Shown: one piece after another, positions 57,078 to 64,000 of the stretch
How positions within the stretch are numbered: position 1 is the first letter of the stretch
Layout: each line of letters begins with the position of its first letter
Origin: Pseudomonas allokribbensis
GTDB taxonomy: Bacteria; Pseudomonadota; Gammaproteobacteria; Pseudomonadales; Pseudomonadaceae
NCBI RefSeq assembly: GCF_014863605.1
Contig: NZ_CP062252.1
Coordinates: 5,279,001 to 5,343,000 of the forward strand
Length of the DNA: 64,000 nucleotides
Direction of reading: 5' to 3'
The notes under the pieces: generated by a model
Database searches by the model: none
What the model was told of the DNA's origin: nothing
Seen by the model: the letters and a program-made list of their open reading frames with translations, nothing else
Position numbers and translations under genes: made by a program

Positions 57078-57306
57078 GAACTCAACTACCTCACGTATCT
57101 GCGGCGGGCCCGCAGGCCAGTAAAGGGCGAATACGATACACCTGCAATTGCGAAACAGTAAGGGTGACCCGGGGCCGCACCGGGCGAAAAATCACTTGCG
57201 GAGCGAACTGGCAATGCTCCGATAGGGGGGGTTGAAGTACGTACAAAATAGTGGCACTTTGACCACAACCCTTCATTGGATCCAAATAAAAACACAAGGA
57301 CTGTGC

Positions 57307-58110
57307 ATGCCTGCATACCCGGGATGGCTCGACAGGGTAATCGACCAAGTGGTCAACGACCCAATTAACGACGACTGTCGAACCACAGCCAATACGTATT
57401 TGGGATGGCCGCGAGACACGGTTTTTTTTGAAGTCATTAAGGGTGGGCAAGCTGACTTCGATGCTCCTCAAAAAGAACTCGCAGGCCCGGACAAAGCTCT
57501 TTTGTATGCAAAGTACAACCAAAGTCGACATCTGGATGAACTCAGATCCGCTTTCGACCAGCTCTTCAAAACCTCGGTTTTAAGCAACCGCCCGACGGTA
57601 GTCGATCTCGGCTGCGGCCCATTTACTGCGGGCCTATCTCTGGCTTCAGTGCTGGGACCAGAAAAGATGTTCCGTTATTACGGCGTGGATCGGTATGAAT
57701 CCATGCTCTCGCTGGGAAACCAGATGGCAGAGGCCACAAAGGCCCAAGGCGCCCTGCACCCTCAAACGTACCTTCAGTTCACCGACAATCTGTCGAATAT
57801 CGACTTCGGAGCCGTGCGAGGTGAACTCACTATCTTCGTTGCGTCGTACCTGCTTGCCAGCCCAACTCTGGATCCGGAGGAATTGGTTGCTGACATCCTT
57901 GCCGCTCACAAGCGCGTAGGTCCTGGTCCATGCGCGGTGCTCTATACCAACAGCTCAAGCCCAAAAGCCCGAGAAAAATTCCCTGCCTTCAATGACTCCC
58001 TGATCGCTGGAGGTTTTCAGTCCTTTAGCGAGAAAGTCGAGCGGTTTGAGCTCACGCGTAACCCTAAAGATCTTCATTACGCCCTCTTTTTCAAGAGTGC
58101 GACACACTAA
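57307..58110 (+). CDS. Class I SAM-dependent methyltransferase, unknown substrate
   Basis: A 267-residue soluble protein. Motif I is VVDLGCGPFTAGLSLA (Asp100), followed by YYGVDRYESML as the acidic second strand and FVASYLLAS as a motif IV-like segment. The first ~95 residues are helical and unfamiliar. AAGGA six bases before ATG 57307 decides the start; a frame extension to 57232 lacks support. It is the first gene of an operon with a helicase-like ATPase (20 bp gap) and an AlkB-fusion dioxygenase. Context suggests nucleic acid as substrate, which is inference. Base composition is lower in GC than the flanking core genes. Confidence 0.8.
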   Translation: MPAYPGWLDRVIDQVVNDPINDDCRTTANTYLGWPRDTVFFEVIKGGQADFDAPQKELAGPDKALLYAKYNQSRHLDELRSAFDQLFKTSVLSNRPTVVDLGCGPFTAGLSLASVLGPEKMFRYYGVDRYESMLSLGNQMAEATKAQGALHPQTYLQFTDNLSNIDFGAVRGELTIFVASYLLASPTLDPEELVADILAAHKRVGPGPCAVLYTNSSSPKAREKFPAFNDSLIAGGFQSFSEKVERFELTRNPKDLHYALFFKSATH

Positions 58111-58130
58111 ACATGCAGAGATAAACGTTC

Positions 58131-59225
58131 ATGAAACTCCCGCTGTTAGATGATTTGATCGACGAACAGATGCAGATTTACGATGCGCCGCCGGATAAAA
58201 ACCTGTTCGTCCTGGGGCCTCCGGGTTCGGGAAAAACCACGATGGCCGTTCACCGCACTCAATATTTGAGAACTTTGAAACGCCGTGCGGTGTTGATTAC
58301 CAAAAACAGGATGCTCGCTGCGCTTGCTGCCCAGCTAGGTAGCGGATCGACTACCAGCACAATGAATACGTTTTTTACCAGAGACTTCTTCAATCGATTC
58401 AATTTCCGCGCCCCCCAACCGGTCAAACGATTTCACTACGACTGGCCGGCGGTGATGGAGCAATACGAAGCTGCGAAGGTCGAGCCGACACTTGACCACC
58501 TGATCATTGACGAAGGCCAAAATCTGCCTGCTGATTTCTATGCATGGGCCGTGCGCTATGGCGCAAAGAACGTCACTGTTTTTGCCGACGAAGATCAGAC
58601 TACGGACAATCAGCGAGCCTCTATTCAAGATATTCGCAATGCACCCATGCCTGAGCCGATCCGACTGAAGGAGAACCATCGCAACACCGAAGAAATCGCC
58701 TGGGTCGCTGAGCATTTCCATCATCGCGCCAATACATTGCCACCTGGCATTATCCGTCGCGGGCGAGGTGGTTCAGTGCCGCGCCTCGAACCCATTTCCA
58801 ATTGGGCAGATGCGGTAAATCTGATCGCCAATGGCTACCGCAACCGAGGTGGCACAATTGGTGTGATCGTACATAAAGTCAGGGACGCGCAAGAACTGCA
58901 ATCGCAACTACGTGCCTCCTTGCCCCCCGATACAAGGATCGATGTATATACCCACGAATCGCCCAAAGGCAGCGAGCATCAAATCAAGTTGATGGCGCCC
59001 GGAATCACTGTTCTGACGAGCCTCGCAGTGATTGGCCTTGAATTCGACACCGTCTACTTGCAAGATCTCTTTCGCTCAACTCCGGAAAGAACCACCGATG
59101 AGCAAAGACGCCTGTACATGCTCTGTGCACGAGCACGGGATCACCTCACCATTTTCAACGGTCTGCCTCCTTTGACTCAGCAGCAACTATCCCGATTACC
59201 CGCTCCGAACCTTCTGAACAGATGA
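58131..59225 (+). CDS. Compact superfamily-1 helicase-like ATPase
   Basis: A 364-residue P-loop protein of UvrD/Rep style. Walker A GPPGSGKTT (29-37, Lys35), motif II DEGQ (Asp127), motif III VFADEDQ, motif IV KENHRNT, motif V VIGLEFDTVY and motif VI LYMLCARARDHLTI are all visible in order. The insert subdomains 1B and 2B of true UvrD helicases are missing, so it may be a translocase or a nucleic acid sensor rather than a processive helicase. ATGA overlap with the next gene implies tight coupling to the AlkB-fusion protein. Confidence 0.85.
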   Translation: MKLPLLDDLIDEQMQIYDAPPDKNLFVLGPPGSGKTTMAVHRTQYLRTLKRRAVLITKNRMLAALAAQLGSGSTTSTMNTFFTRDFFNRFNFRAPQPVKRFHYDWPAVMEQYEAAKVEPTLDHLIIDEGQNLPADFYAWAVRYGAKNVTVFADEDQTTDNQRASIQDIRNAPMPEPIRLKENHRNTEEIAWVAEHFHHRANTLPPGIIRRGRGGSVPRLEPISNWADAVNLIANGYRNRGGTIGVIVHKVRDAQELQSQLRASLPPDTRIDVYTHESPKGSEHQIKLMAPGITVLTSLAVIGLEFDTVYLQDLFRSTPERTTDEQRRLYMLCARARDHLTIFNGLPPLTQQQLSRLPAPNLLNR

Positions 59226-61399
59226 TTGCGAAGCCGCAGGCGCCAATGACAACGATGCCATTGTTCCTTGAAAGCGAGCAGGACGACGCTTGCCCTGTTG
59301 AAAGTCAGCCTCCCAGAAAAGGATTCGCTCTCTCGCTCGACCACCGGGCCTGGCTGAGTTTTCTGGCCGACGAATGGTGCATGCCTGCAAACGAAAAAGC
59401 CCTGTATCTGGGTGTAAACCAACCATTGGAGCTCAAGCTTCCAGAGGACCGAATCGCCGTTACCGCCTGGTTCGATCCAGATCGGCTTCCCCAGATAAAG
59501 GTATTGAGATACCGCAATAGATCCTGGGCCAACGGTTCATTCGATCTGAAGATAGACAAGAAAATCTGTTGGCCCAGCGCTCTGCCTTTGTTCGCAGTCA
59601 GTCAATTTAGCGTGAAGTCTGAATCAGACAGAGAACGCTTGATTGCTATGGTGCATAGCTTCTCGAACCTTGCGTTGCCAAAACAGCCGATTTTCGTTGT
59701 GGACGAAGTCACCCAGGCTTTTAATCCTCCCAAGAAATCACCAAGCACGCCTGTATTCCCACCAGATCGATGGAATGCATTACGAGGCGCCGCAACAATG
59801 GCGGTTTGGGCTATTCCCACCATAGAGCCGTGGCTGGATATTCTCTGCAGCTCATTGTCAGAACAACAGCCCTCTGAACTTCTTGGTTTCCTTGATGCAC
59901 CATGGCTCGCTTATTTACCATGGCATCAGCCTTCTGAGCCAACAGTTACGACACCGGCAATCGCCTTGTGGCGCGCCATGGTTGAGACATTTTCCGAAGT
60001 CAATGTACGAGAGGCATGGCGCCCTTCGGAACTGCTCGAAACCATATGCGACAAAGCCCGATGCGCAGCCATTGAACCTGGCGCGCTGGACGAACTGCTT
60101 CTGCAAACGAGCGCGATTCTGGAAGACAAACAGATCGTGCAAAAAGAAAGAGGCGACTACGATCCGGTAGGCTTGGTGCTACAGCTGATTCTGTTGCGCC
60201 CAAAACCTGACCAGTTCATCACCTGGAAAAACGATATGCCCGCCTTACCCCCTGCTATCTGGTGGTCGGGTGCCATACTGAGCGGGCTGGTCACAGGTTA
60301 TCGAAATCTTGAGCTGCGTTTCAGAGGACTTACTGAATCAAGTCGACTTCTAGCCTTGATCACGTGGCAACTGAGATCTACCCAAAAGGCTCCTGCTCCT
60401 CAATGGCCTGGGAATCCGCTCGGTGCACTGAGTTGGAAAAATGCTCAGGGTCAAATCGAATTCTTGAACTGCGATATAACCTGGGCTGAACGTCCGTTAG
60501 GCAAGCGTGGAACCTGGTTTAACGCAAGCTTCGAAAACCCTGCGGTTCTGGAAAAAGCTATCGAGATTGCTCGAAGTCTCTTACCCAGCGCCATTCGCCC
60601 TACTTTGCGAATCCGAAATAGCACTATTCAACTATCGGGTCCTGGGACCATTGAAATTGATCAAAGCGCCCGTCAACTCAATGTAACGGGCGATCTCTAT
60701 TTCGATCTGGCCGAGGGTGCCGAACAAGTCGATCGATTTGACTCAGGCATTTTCAAAAAATGGTTGGCAACTGGAAGTATTGCGCAAAAGCTTCCTCCCC
60801 CACCACGCGAAATGGTTGCCCCAGAGATAGTGACCGAGCCACTCGCACCGAAAGGTCTTAAGGTTATGCGTGATTTCATAACCAAAGAAGAAGAAATTCG
60901 CTTGCTGGAGTGGGTTGAGCTGGGTGATTGGTTATCTGACTTGAAACGTAGAGTCCAGCACTATGGATGGAAATATAATTACAAGCTCCGCAAGGTTGAC
61001 TCTGCCTCATACCTAGGGCCTTTACCAACGTGGGCACAAACTTTGGGGCAGCGCTTATTCGACCTCGGCATGGTGAAAGAATTACCCGATCAAGTGATCG
61101 TTAATGAGTACGTAGGAAACCAGGGAATTAGTAAACACATTGATTGCCCCGACTGTTTTCGCGGTCCTATTGTGACCATCAGTCTATGCGAAACATGGCA
61201 AATGATTTTCAGATCAGGCAACGATAAATTTGAGACTCGTCTTGCTCAACGAAGTGCAGTTTCAATGGATGGACCAGCCCGATATGAATGGTCACATGAA
61301 ATACCACAGCGCAAAAACGAGCAGGACAGCGTACGAGGACGCCGAATTTCGTTAACGTTCAGAAAAGTTAATAGAGAACCACCAACCAACGTTAACTAA
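59222..61399 (+). CDS. AlkB-like 2OG-Fe(II) dioxygenase fused to a large unknown N-terminal region
   Basis: A 725-residue protein. The last ~180 residues are an AlkB domain: VMRDFI start, NEYVGNQGISKHID with the iron ligands His639 and Asp641, GPIVTISLCETWQMIF, distal His692 in WSHEI, and RRISLTFR for 2-oxoglutarate binding. AlkB enzymes remove methyl groups from DNA or RNA bases by oxidation. Residues ~1-540 match nothing I know; they are mixed in structure with several Trp-rich segments. E. coli AlkB is only ~216 residues, so the fusion is notable. The 3' third is clearly richer in A and T than core genes. It shares an ATGA overlap with the helicase gene and ends at a terminator. Confidence 0.85.
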   Translation: MIAKPQAPMTTMPLFLESEQDDACPVESQPPRKGFALSLDHRAWLSFLADEWCMPANEKALYLGVNQPLELKLPEDRIAVTAWFDPDRLPQIKVLRYRNRSWANGSFDLKIDKKICWPSALPLFAVSQFSVKSESDRERLIAMVHSFSNLALPKQPIFVVDEVTQAFNPPKKSPSTPVFPPDRWNALRGAATMAVWAIPTIEPWLDILCSSLSEQQPSELLGFLDAPWLAYLPWHQPSEPTVTTPAIALWRAMVETFSEVNVREAWRPSELLETICDKARCAAIEPGALDELLLQTSAILEDKQIVQKERGDYDPVGLVLQLILLRPKPDQFITWKNDMPALPPAIWWSGAILSGLVTGYRNLELRFRGLTESSRLLALITWQLRSTQKAPAPQWPGNPLGALSWKNAQGQIEFLNCDITWAERPLGKRGTWFNASFENPAVLEKAIEIARSLLPSAIRPTLRIRNSTIQLSGPGTIEIDQSARQLNVTGDLYFDLAEGAEQVDRFDSGIFKKWLATGSIAQKLPPPPREMVAPEIVTEPLAPKGLKVMRDFITKEEEIRLLEWVELGDWLSDLKRRVQHYGWKYNYKLRKVDSASYLGPLPTWAQTLGQRLFDLGMVKELPDQVIVNEYVGNQGISKHIDCPDCFRGPIVTISLCETWQMIFRSGNDKFETRLAQRSAVSMDGPARYEWSHEIPQRKNEQDSVRGRRISLTFRKVNREPPTNVN

Positions 61400-61812
61400 C
61401 TCGACAAACATTCACTTTAAAAACCTCCTGATCTTTTGATCTGGAGGTTTTTTATTAACGAAGGCTTTAGAAAATCAAGCCTCGATAGGGATCAGGCACT
61501 TCACCGCCTTTGTAGGCACACTTGGCCAATAACTCTGCCAATCGTCAGGGCCATGGACGAGCGTTTTGTCTCTCATCAGTCCCTATTTCTCTAGTGAAGC
61601 AGCTTGTTACCGTTGGAGTGCGAAGCAACCTGACAAAAAGCGAAAACCTTACGTAGAATGCCGGCGTGGCTATGGAACACCTTCCTTCTAAACCCTATGA
61701 ACTAGGGGTTCCGCTCTCCACACCGCGCCTGCTCCCAGCAGGCGTTTTCATATCAGCTGTAGGCACGATGCTGCAGCTCGCTCATGACGGCGACACAGGG
61801 AGAAAATCAAGC
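61400..61812. other. 413-bp intergenic region between AlkB-fusion and TerD-like genes
   Basis: It starts with a terminator at 61417-61454. The rest has no gene that I can support; a short open frame at 61666-61812 in phase with the next gene lacks a good ribosome site. CGCGCCTGCTCCCAGCAGGCGTTTTC near 61725 forms a GCCTGC/GCAGGC hairpin with TTTT, perhaps an attenuator in the leader of the next gene. Confidence 0.5.
61417..61454 (+). terminator. Terminator of the methyltransferase-helicase-AlkB operon
   Basis: AAAACCTCCTGATC and GATCTGGAGGTTTTTT form a stem with a TTTT loop and one mismatch, ending in a T-run 20 bp after the stop. Confidence 0.85.
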
Positions 61813-63885
61813 ATGAATCAGGAGCTGTTCCTGCGTCGCCGTAGCAAAGTTCACGTCCCGATGGGCACTGGCGGTGCCACGCGCGCTCAGGTCGCGTCGG
61901 CTGTCCGGGAAATCGCGGCGTTCCGGTGCGTACTGTCAGAGCCTCTGATTGAACAAATCGGCCTGTTGTCAGCGAAAGAACTCAAGCTCTGGTTGCGTGA
62001 CATTGTCGGAGTTCTTCGGCGCAGGAGTGGCGCTCACGTGCACCACCGGCCGTTTTATCCTGACTTTCCAGAACAGGTTCTGACGGCCTCGGAGGCCGAG
62101 TTGTACCTTAACGCCGTCATGCATTACCTCACGCTTCGACGCTTACCAGCGACTGAAGAATCCCGGCCTCCATTGCTTGAAGGCAAGTTAGTACCTTGGG
62201 TTATCGAACCGGGAAGCATCCCTGAGTTCGAGTCACTGTTCGAGCCGCTGGTTTCATCACGCACATCGCTTTCCGAAGAAGAAGCTGCCGATGTCATCTG
62301 GTTTATCCGCCAGTACAAAAGTGATGTGTTCCGCCTGCTGCCTGAGGTCGTCCCCTTCCGGGAGATCCGGGCACAGGTTGGCGGCGCACTGCTCTTGCAT
62401 GTCGCTGGCGATGTACGGGTGGATGCATTCCTGGAGCAAAACGTCGAAACGGCGACTGACGTATTGCGACTCGCGGTCGCGTTGAACGGAGGAGACGTGT
62501 CACTGGCGACTGCTACTACACGTTTCAAAGCGATGAAGCGCTCGATGCGTCGTCTGCTGTTGAGTCTGCTCGATCGAATACCCAACGCTACAGAAGACGT
62601 GATGCGGCAAGCCGAGCGGTGGAAACGCCTGGCTGAAGTACTACATCCGGGCGACTACGCCGATAAGTACCCAAGTGCGCTGGCCGCCATCACGGCGGCG
62701 CGTCGCAACGAAGCGCCTGACTCATTTGGTTCTCGTGTCGAAACACTGTTTGCCCTGCGTGATATTGCCGAGCTTGTGCCCGTGCTACAGAGCCGTCCCG
62801 GTGAGTTCGCACGACGGCTGGACGCAATGCTACGACGCGCTACGGAAACAGAGTCGGTCCTTGACGCATTCGAGGCTGTTGCGGCACAAGTGTCCTCACC
62901 TGTCCTGCTGCAGTTGCTGGCCCAGTCACGTGCACCGCGCCCCCTGCCCCTTAGGGCGTTCACACCGAAAGGTTCATTCGCGAAAGTCTATGGCATCAAG
63001 GATGACCGAGAGCCTATCGCACCCGAGGTGCTGGCTCGTGCAGCCCGAATCTGCGAGGACGCTCTAGTAACGCGTTTTGCGACACTACCGCCATTGGGTC
63101 GCTGTTACATCGATCCGGAATTGCGCGAATACAGGGTACCGTTGGCACAACGCGCTTCATCGAAGTCGCTACGTACACTGGTGCGGGGCAGTCGCCTGCC
63201 TATGCCTGACACCCGTTTCATTCGCCTTTTCCTGTGGTGGAAAAACGGTCGCTCACGCACGGACATCGATTTGTCCGCCGCATTTTTCGATGCCAACTTC
63301 GTGTTCAGAGAAACGGTTGCGTACTACAACCTGAGAGATTACGGCGGCTGCCACAGCGGCGACATCGTCGACGCGCCCGAAGGGGCTTCGGAGTTCATCG
63401 ACCTCGACCTTGACGTCCTCGTCGAGAAGGGGATCCGTTATGTCGTCACGTCCATCAACTCGTACACCCAGCAGCCGTACTGCGATCTTCCAGAATGCTT
63501 CGCTGGCTGGATGGCTCGCGCCGATACGGCATCGGGTGAAGTATTCGAGCCGCGAACCGTGTTCGATCGTATCGATATCGCATCCGACACACAGATCTGT
63601 CTGCCATTTGTGATGGATTTGCAGGAGCGACGGGTGATCTGGGCCGACCTGGGACTGACCGCAGCTCCTCGATGGAACAATGTCGGGAACAACCTCAGTG
63701 GGGTATCGTTGATGCTACGGGCTTTGGTGCATACACCGCGACCTGATCTGGAGACACTGTTCGATTTGCATGTACGAGCACGAGGCGAACGAGTGGCTTC
63801 GCCGCTGCAGGCACAGGCGGTGTTTGCGCCTGATCGAGGGATAACGCCGTTCGATACGGATTTGATTCGGTCACAGTTTCTCTAA
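61813..63885 (+). CDS. Large protein with TerD-like C-terminal domain
   Basis: A 690-residue soluble protein. The last ~250 residues resemble TerD stress proteins: RLFLWWKNGRSRTDIDLSAAF, AYYNLRDYGGCHSGDIVDAP and EFIDLDLDVL, where the acidic residues would bind calcium. The whole protein recalls the MXAN_6230/SCO0854 family, but the RING cysteine cluster of that family is not visible here. The middle ~400 residues are helical. ATG 61813 (MNQELFLRRRSKVHVP) is preferred; GGGAG lies ten bases before it. It follows the AlkB operon behind a terminator and is probably transcribed on its own. TerD proteins are linked to tellurite, phage and stress resistance. Confidence 0.6.
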   Translation: MNQELFLRRRSKVHVPMGTGGATRAQVASAVREIAAFRCVLSEPLIEQIGLLSAKELKLWLRDIVGVLRRRSGAHVHHRPFYPDFPEQVLTASEAELYLNAVMHYLTLRRLPATEESRPPLLEGKLVPWVIEPGSIPEFESLFEPLVSSRTSLSEEEAADVIWFIRQYKSDVFRLLPEVVPFREIRAQVGGALLLHVAGDVRVDAFLEQNVETATDVLRLAVALNGGDVSLATATTRFKAMKRSMRRLLLSLLDRIPNATEDVMRQAERWKRLAEVLHPGDYADKYPSALAAITAARRNEAPDSFGSRVETLFALRDIAELVPVLQSRPGEFARRLDAMLRRATETESVLDAFEAVAAQVSSPVLLQLLAQSRAPRPLPLRAFTPKGSFAKVYGIKDDREPIAPEVLARAARICEDALVTRFATLPPLGRCYIDPELREYRVPLAQRASSKSLRTLVRGSRLPMPDTRFIRLFLWWKNGRSRTDIDLSAAFFDANFVFRETVAYYNLRDYGGCHSGDIVDAPEGASEFIDLDLDVLVEKGIRYVVTSINSYTQQPYCDLPECFAGWMARADTASGEVFEPRTVFDRIDIASDTQICLPFVMDLQERRVIWADLGLTAAPRWNNVGNNLSGVSLMLRALVHTPRPDLETLFDLHVRARGERVASPLQAQAVFAPDRGITPFDTDLIRSQFL

Positions 63886-63947
63886 TACCTGCGCCTGCCT
63901 TTGCGTTCATTGAGAAACTCTGCCTCGGCACTTTCCGCCCAAAAACA

Positions 63948-63985
63948 AAAATGCCAGTCAGCTTAACTGACTGGCATTTTCTATA
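63948..63985 (+). terminator. Terminator after the TerD-like gene
   Basis: AAAATGCCAGTCAG (63948-63961) pairs perfectly with CTGACTGGCATTTT (63967-63980) over a 5-nt loop and is followed by CTAT. It is nearly symmetrical, so it may also end a gene coming from the right. Confidence 0.85.
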
Positions 63986-64000
63986 ACCCCTTTTGCGCCT

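Follow-up and report, generated by a model that had tools for sequence, protein, structure and literature searches.

Comparison with described systems

RNA hydroxylation of the ALKBH8 type is best known from animals. According to the titles of studies cited in PMC11431407, ALKBH8 is a tRNA methyltransferase joined to a wobble-uridine hydroxylase. ARMADA pairs helicases with a methyltransferase (ARMADA preprint), and AlkB has no occurrence in the main text of that preprint. In the window, the whole 64,000-nucleotide stretch of Pseudomonas allokribbensis DNA analyzed here, we characterized an operon encoding a class I SAM methyltransferase (MT, P0001), a short SF1 ATPase (P0002) and an AlkB fusion protein (P0003). 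A methyltransferase and an AlkB go together in the operon, as they do in ALKBH8, which is the nearest solved relative of the P0003 AlkB domain. Unlike ALKBH8, the operon uses separate bacterial genes, and it further encodes an SF1 ATPase as well as a region of 540 aa that is new. In addition, Pfam detected no RRM domain in 30 AlkB-fusion relatives. Whether or not of the Trm9 type, the MT gave four matches to solved proteins, all of them weak and none named ALKBH8 or Trm9.

The original prediction knew of no named system with these three genes. Consistent with this, no description of the set appeared among the papers listed by our literature search; the RNA-repair work of Burroughs and Aravind (2016) could contain related pairs. 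Using PADLOC, we observed a partial likeness of P0001 to the candidate defence gene C3a159 (‘methyl transferase’), limited to residues 57–192 (E = 9.1e-11); this entry, as displayed, names no AlkB or ATPase partner. P0002 partially matched helicase components from a number of systems, with E = 3e-11 at best, and P0003 had no PADLOC match. Membership of a known defence system was rejected by profile because the PADLOC matches were partial only. Pfam gave no sign of the YprA-like helicase or PglX-like MT of ARMADA, nor of DarT or a macrodomain, in the three proteins.

Organization and composition of the operon

The MT gene (57307–58110, + strand; 267 aa) is separated by 20 bp from the ATPase gene (58131–59225, + strand; 364 aa), which overlaps the AlkB-fusion gene (59222–61399, + strand; 725 aa) through an ATGA. 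An intrinsic terminator lies 3′ of all three genes (61419–61452, + strand), its stem folding with an energy of −18.9 kcal/mol (z = −6.7) that none of 200 shuffles equaled. The ORF coordinates and fold energy agree with the operon and common terminator proposed earlier. This terminator is absent from the output of a simple terminator scan. The GC content of the operon is 0.512, compared to 0.605 in bases 1–57000 of the window and to a minimum of 0.573 among 265 segments of 4093 bp to its left, as expected from the earlier claim of a composition below that of the left-hand genes. The downstream gene had been called TerD-like, a designation that our searches did not confirm: it yielded no Pfam match, and scored 461.6 bits against the NCBIfam MXAN_6230/SCO0854 RING family, below the cut-off of 600.

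The methyltransferase

P0001 contains motif I (DLGCGPFT, residue 100), in keeping with the SAM methyltransferase assignment made previously, and carries VASYLLAS at residue 178, which we take to be the motif IV region. Its top solved match is trans-aconitate 3-methyltransferase (E = 1.4e-4). This small-molecule enzyme, together with the weak likeness of P0001 to RNA enzymes, argues against an RNA target. The match would also suit a reading in which the substrate of the MT and the dioxygenase is a small molecule or protein, with the ATPase as a chaperone-like partner. We consider this very unlikely, since the AlkB is nearest to a nucleic-acid enzyme, and the SF1 ATPase and the BMT5-like partner in sister pairs (see below) indicate nucleic acid. 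Action on RNA, which we favor, is consistent with a weak Rsm22/METTL17 likeness in 13 of the 87 family members and with the DNA amino-MT motif [DNS]PP[YFWH] being absent from all 87.

An MT profile search at E ≤ 1e-3 returned many short, weak matches, in 25 of 369 genomes in one search and in 41 of 398 in another, with 11 table rows of the 398-genome search lacking an assigned locus. Matches above 50 bits were confined to G000, G614 and G713; the others read as generic methyltransferase stretches and were left uncounted, except that G439 was retained despite its weak match because an AlkB adjoins its MT. When the three proteins were compared with the collected loci by tblastn, P0003-like sequence lay close to weak MT matches at L025 and L048 only.

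The SF1 ATPase

P0002 displays the full set of SF1 core motifs (Walker A at residue 29, DEGQ at 127, FADEDQ at 151, NHRNT at 182, GLEFD at 302 and YMLCARAR at 329). Against solved proteins, the ATPase profile matched HelD best (E = 7.8e-24), followed by UvrD (E = 9.3e-11); the earlier description as a short UvrD-like ATPase was fair, with HelD the better match. P0002 has its core motifs in common with both enzymes, but at 364 aa it is about half their length (at least 700 aa) and it scores far below their curated cut-offs, reaching 47.8 bits against the NCBIfam HelD model, whose cut-off is 419.

SF1 relatives work on DNA, RNA or RNA polymerase, which is a point against a specifically RNA-directed function. 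The similarity of P0002 to UvrD and GajB could instead indicate DNA modification or epigenetic restriction, with the MT marking DNA, the AlkB resetting the mark and the SF1 motor working unmarked DNA. Distant P0002 relatives sit in DrmA–DrmB operons, as in DISARM, and the second-best solved match of the AlkB profile is labelled a DNA N6-methyl adenine demethylase, both in line with this possibility. PADLOC matched neither DrmA nor DrmB in P0001–P0003 or in the gene that follows them. Against DNA modification, the MTs lack a DPPY-type motif, as noted above, and Pfam found no nuclease or DNA-recognition domain in P0001–P0003 or 30 P0003 relatives, although the N-terminal region of P0003 may hide a novel nuclease. 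We regard this explanation as unlikely.

The AlkB fusion protein

P0003 comprises an undescribed N-terminal region containing 21 Trp (59222–60841, + strand; residues 1–540), for which no credible Pfam match was found across 30 relatives, and a C-terminal ALKBH8-like AlkB domain (60842–61399, + strand; residues 541–725). The latter matches Pfam 2OG-FeII_Oxy_2 over residues 583–714 (E = 1e-17), and its Fe and 2OG residues are intact: HxD at 639/641, H at 692 and R708-x5-R714. All 30 aligned relatives share the HxD...H and R-x5-R pattern, upholding the earlier proposal of an AlkB domain with complete iron and 2OG residues. Among the 31 solved sequences matched by the AlkB profile, ALKBH8 was the best (E = 1.4e-38; next, 3.1e-22), and its lead over the other solved AlkBs argues for RNA as the substrate. 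Of the methyl writer and oxidative remover proposed initially, the writer and the oxidase are supported, whereas removal is uncertain, as ALKBH8 is known to hydroxylate a methylated uridine, at the wobble position of tRNA. In the AlkB tree, the triplet AlkBs clustered more than in any of 500 shuffles; two long outgroups were unusable and 12 of 23 forks open, and this clustering is the only conclusion drawn from the tree.

Distribution and mobility

The three genes occurred in the same order and tightly packed in all eight opened loci with a full-length third protein, so that they cannot be described as rarely together. These loci belong to four Pseudomonas, two other Gammaproteobacteria, one myxobacterium and one IMG/VR contig. 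Within Pseudomonas, the triplet was present in 4 of 398 genomes; a search of 298 genomes with the ATPase profile (E ≤ 1e-20) hit these same four only, and at this threshold it hit 0 of 249 in family f191. Across 11 loci, the distances of the MT, ATPase, N-terminal region and AlkB correlate (r = 0.90–0.94), and the divergence of the operon far exceeds that of a host gene; therefore, the operon moves as a unit. The triplet is a conserved, co-inherited and horizontally mobile accessory module of low GC content.

Its rare and patchy presence in Pseudomonas argues against an alkylation-damage repair operon, in which the AlkB would repair DNA or RNA assisted by the ATPase, with the MT as an accessory. 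An AlkB fold and an SF1 ATPase would fit such a function, but it leaves the conserved methyltransferase unexplained, and we find it highly improbable.

Regarding carriers, P0003, P0002 and the Picosynechococcus AlkB were unmatched at E ≤ 1e-5 in 50,697 phage records. Among 72,556 plasmid records, none contained most of P0003 and two contained most of P0002, both within DrmA–DrmB operons; the MT matched three Picosynechococcus plasmids only, partially. Neighboring genes were surveyed by PADLOC on selected ORFs (six at L014, one at L013, two at L017 and one at L018) and by Pfam on ten selected ORFs, and one of the eight triplets (G073) was shown to be close to a known defence system, CBASS. The accessory part of the suggested accessory or defence island is borne out by low GC and patchiness; the defence part is weakly supported, by a defence neighbor shown at one of eight triplets in this selective survey.

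Proposed function

We tentatively favor, at somewhat less than an even chance, the modification of nucleic-acid bases, most probably in RNA, as the function of this horizontally mobile operon. Its likeliest form is the two-step modification of an RNA base, or else the writing and erasing of a mark. The MT would place a methyl-type mark on a base, for which a tRNA or rRNA uridine is our best guess; the ALKBH8-like domain would then oxidize this mark, either generating a hydroxylated hypermodified base or removing the methyl. The SF1 ATPase may open or deliver the substrate, which the N-terminal region may hold or recognize. In the cell, translation could thereby be protected or retuned under attack by phage or by toxins that cut or alter RNA. 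Such a role in conflict is plausible but weakly supported. The original reading as base modification, RNA repair or phage defence is partly supported: the conserved writer, oxidase and ATPase module holds, and phage defence is conjectural, with one of eight triplets shown to lie near a defence system. If true, what is known of the ways in which bacteria chemically modify RNA (or DNA) would be widened by an operon that couples such an oxidase to a methyltransferase of its own, an ATPase and a new region of ~540 aa, and that moves between distant bacteria; it may reveal a conflict system built on reversible or two-step base methylation.

Simpler MT–AlkB pairs

Compact MT–AlkB pairs, MT first, were found without the rest of the triplet at L017, L018, L088 and L089, two of the four residing on plasmids. 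In G816, a BMT5-like (rRNA uridine-N3) MT (E = 1.5e-35) lies 13 bp upstream of the same AlkB type, and BMT5-like ORFs were seen by eye at 4 further of the 8 AlkB places in its family. The BMT5-like pairs of family f222 place an RNA-type MT directly 5′ of an ALKBH8-like AlkB, but their MT family differs from that of P0001, and the ATPase and N-terminal region were not seen; no BMT5–AlkB pair was found on plasmids, where two MT matches were partial. The MT–AlkB pairs, including that of G816, favor the RNA reading; ALKBH8-like AlkBs with no adjoining MT by eye (L019, L020, L087, L125, L128 and L130) speak against it.

DarG reverses the ADP-ribose mark of DarT. The pairs could likewise combine a toxin that writes with an antitoxin that erases: the MT would arrest growth by methylating tRNA or rRNA, and the adjoining AlkB would remove the methyl. 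In the triplet, the ATPase and N-terminal region would serve as infection sensors that set the writer free. The compact MT-then-AlkB arrangement, its presence on plasmids in two of four cases and its recurrence with a second MT family, whose expected product, m3U, is taken as a substrate by the AlkB-type enzyme FTO (PMC11431407), are consistent with this scenario. Conversely, the AlkB is also found alone, and no such toxin–antitoxin pair is known or appeared among the papers listed by a literature search. We regard this scenario as distinctly unlikely. Equally doubtful is the resulting idea of a methylation-based immune or addiction system, with an RNA MT arresting translation, an ALKBH8-like oxidase reversing the mark and, in the triplet, the SF1 ATPase and new sensor region as guards. 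If true, it would match DarTG with a writer and an eraser, and at least two different MT families would be plugged into one AlkB type. For the RNA base-modification operon that we favor, the MT–AlkB pairs offer small, tractable starting points; the MTs of the pairs on two Picosynechococcus plasmids match C3a159 in full (E = 7e-125 and 4e-118).

Organization and conservation of the three-gene operon

The operon (57307–61399) consists of three plus-strand ORFs: a class I methyltransferase of 267 aa (P0001, 57307–58110), an SF1 ATPase of 364 aa (P0002, 58131–59225) that follows after a 20-bp gap, and a 725-aa AlkB fusion (P0003, 59222–61399) joined to the ATPase gene by an ATGA overlap, coordinates that agree with the layout first proposed. 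Downstream on the same strand, a terminator composed of a stem-loop followed by T's (61419–61452) folds at −18.9 kcal/mol (z −6.7), which was equalled by none of 200 shuffles. The operon was also described as poorer in GC than the genes on its left, and it is: 0.512 versus 0.605 for bases 1–57000 of the window, the flank used for comparison, with a minimum of 0.573 among 265 windows of 4.1 kb left of the operon. The window is a stretch of a 6,565,027-base contig.

We opened eight loci, each with a full-length P0003 relative and retrieved by searching with any of the three proteins: four in Pseudomonas (the window's genome G000, G111, G073 and G102), one in the gammaproteobacterial MAG UBA6724 (L001), one in a genome of the same class (G614, L090), one in Enhygromyxa salina (L002) and one on an IMG/VR contig (L082). 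The triplet is conserved: all three genes are present at all eight loci in the same order and strand, and neighbouring genes overlap by up to 4 bp or are separated by up to 20 bp. Operon GC lies clearly under that of the flanks at seven of the eight and is about equal in L082. Full-length P0003 occurs in 4 of 398 Pseudomonas genomes, six others having weak AlkB-domain matches only, and a search of 298 genomes for the ATPase (E ≤ 1e-20) gave 4, identical to those with full-length P0003. Pairwise distances of methyltransferase, ATPase, N-region (P0003 residues 1–540) and AlkB domain over 11 loci correlate at r 0.90–0.94 (permutation p 0.0005 each, the smallest attainable and uncorrected for common descent); this set excluded G073, a near-relative of G111, and four of its loci were pieced together from protein matches on contigs of equal length, inferred to belong together.

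Family assignment of the encoded proteins

The ATPase carries the SF1 motifs Walker A, DEGQ, FADEDQ, NHRNT, GLEFD and YMLCARAR, and its profile best matches HelD (E 7.8e-24) and UvrD (9.3e-11), both about twice its length; its description as a short UvrD-like ATPase is fair, with HelD scoring higher. Short SF1 ATPases 29–31% identical to it over 94–96% of its length were also observed in DrmA–DrmB–ATPase operons of overlapping or abutting genes on Streptomyces fungicidicus plasmid p1 (L021:4029–10086) and Deinococcus gobiensis plasmid P4 (L022:3874–10122). These are possibly a DISARM-like variant; no methyltransferase was found inside the p1 run itself.

The methyltransferase profile has four weak solved matches, the best being trans-aconitate 3-methyltransferase (E 1.4e-4) and METTL17 (5.4e-3), and none is named ALKBH8 or Trm9. 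Among 87 relatives, 13 match the Rsm22 family weakly and none contains the DNA amino-methyltransferase motif [DNS]PP[YFWH]. Residues 57–192 of P0001 partially match the PADLOC candidate defence gene C3a159, "methyl transferase" (E 9e-11).

The AlkB domain belongs to Pfam 2OG-FeII_Oxy_2 (E 1e-17), and its iron and 2OG residues, originally described as complete, are indeed intact, HxD...H and R-x5-R being conserved in 30 of 30 relatives. Its closest solved relative is ALKBH8 (E 1.4e-38), followed by a "DNA N6-methyl adenine demethylase" (3.1e-22); unlike in ALKBH8, no RRM was detected in 30 relatives of the AlkB fusion. Searches with P0003 and 30 relatives gave no credible Pfam match for the N-region, and two single-member matches (E 0.02–0.05) look like chance. 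Pfam and PADLOC 2.0 returned at most domain-level or partial matches for the three proteins and no description of the set was found in the literature searched, in keeping with the claim that it is unnamed. AlkB goes unmentioned in the main text of the preprint on ARMADA (PMC12458937). A review of jumbo phages (PMC7824862) notes that a few phages have an AlkB-like enzyme, which possibly resets methyl marks.

Methyltransferase–AlkB pairs and the proposed mechanism

A methyltransferase lies directly ahead of a similar, stand-alone AlkB on Picosynechococcus plasmids (pAQ5, L017; PCC 7003, L018) and in genomes G713 (L088) and G439 (L089); a third Picosynechococcus record (NC_010480) has search matches to both. 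C3a159 is matched in full by the methyltransferases of pAQ5 (E 7e-125) and PCC 7003 (4e-118), and its family by nine of ten tested, the exception being that of L089, which resembles the P0001 family only weakly. In genome G816, the methyltransferase 13 bp upstream of AlkB is of a different family, a BMT5-like rRNA uridine-N3 methyltransferase (E 1.5e-35). Its genome family, f222, has ALKBH8-like AlkBs at eight places in 6 of 14 genomes; a similar methyltransferase ORF (one short) directly precedes five (L124:6542–7904, L127, L129, L131 and L133), assigned by Pfam in G816 (L124) and by visual inspection in the remaining four, and three lack one, one of these near a contig end. By eye, no adjoining methyltransferase was seen in L019, L020, L087 or L125. 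AlkBs without a neighbouring methyltransferase contradict a strict pairing rule. The boldest reading, in which the methyltransferase is a writer toxin and the AlkB an eraser antitoxin, we consider improbable.

Few genomes have this ALKBH8-like type of AlkB: a scan of 239 from the phylum at E ≤ 1e-15 found 2, one of them the window's own. Three copies, some incomplete, are spaced 7–8 kb apart on one contig (G1386:C104; L132, L130, L133), and two lie on IMG/VR contigs (L087:10049–10645 and L125:1443–2057), the latter among neighbours that by eye resemble phage head genes.

By analogy with ALKBH8, we propose coupled methylation and oxidation, and tentatively read the operon as a two-step base-modification system acting on RNA, a reading we hold at somewhat under even confidence. 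The methyltransferase would put a mark on a base, the ALKBH8-like domain would then hydroxylate or remove it, and the ATPase and N-region would present the substrate. Our guess for the base is uridine, because ALKBH8 targets wobble uridine, according to work cited in PMC11431407, because the AlkB-type enzyme FTO demethylates m3U, as PMC11431407 states, and because BMT5-like methyltransferases, by their Pfam family name, act on uridine-N3.

Mobility and genomic neighbourhoods

In G000 the operon is flanked on one side by a multicopper-oxidase-like gene, next to tadA, and on the other by guaA, which is just beyond the window edge past a 739-aa gene; in G102 the operon is on the opposite side of tadA. 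Between G000 and G102, divergence is far greater in the operon proteins (40–57% identity) than in GuaA (90%), so the operon moves between genomes as a unit. No integrase adjoining the window's operon was seen by eye. Eleven relatives were opened (L111–L121), in six of which guaA fell outside the examined stretch; in the other five the oxidase–guaA interval, variable in content, ranges from 161 bp (G012) through 3.1 kb (G011), 3.4 kb (G002) and 8.8 kb (G008) to 11.7 kb (G005). In Pseudomonas this interval (window 57078–64000) is a site of variable cargo, whose contents by eye include IS-like and sugar-transport genes. The 739-aa protein (61666–63885) is a relative of the MXAN_6230/SCO0854 RING family, under the family cut-off, and was not found among the loci retrieved from other genomes.

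The defence setting originally suggested is plausible, though weakly supported. In G073 roughly 2 kb separates the operon from the gene for NucC, which belongs to a CBASS set together with TRIP13, HORMA and cyclase, with a CapP-like gene further on. This is the one triplet of eight with a defence neighbour on record among the selected neighbours examined. The surroundings of L001 and L090 resemble housekeeping genes by eye and include, in L090, a Peptidase_M17 gene (Pfam). Near the pAQ5 pair are a reverse transcriptase matching PADLOC RT families, an Abi-family gene and a restriction-endonuclease-family gene, and in PCC 7003 two genes separate the pair from a RAMP CRISPR-associated protein. 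The defence reading draws on few loci. The stretch ahead of the pAQ5 pair (L017:903–4977) encodes the reverse transcriptase, a P-loop/WYL protein and a further protein of 301 aa, and the PCC 7003 pair likewise has upstream of it a WYL protein resembling that of pAQ5.
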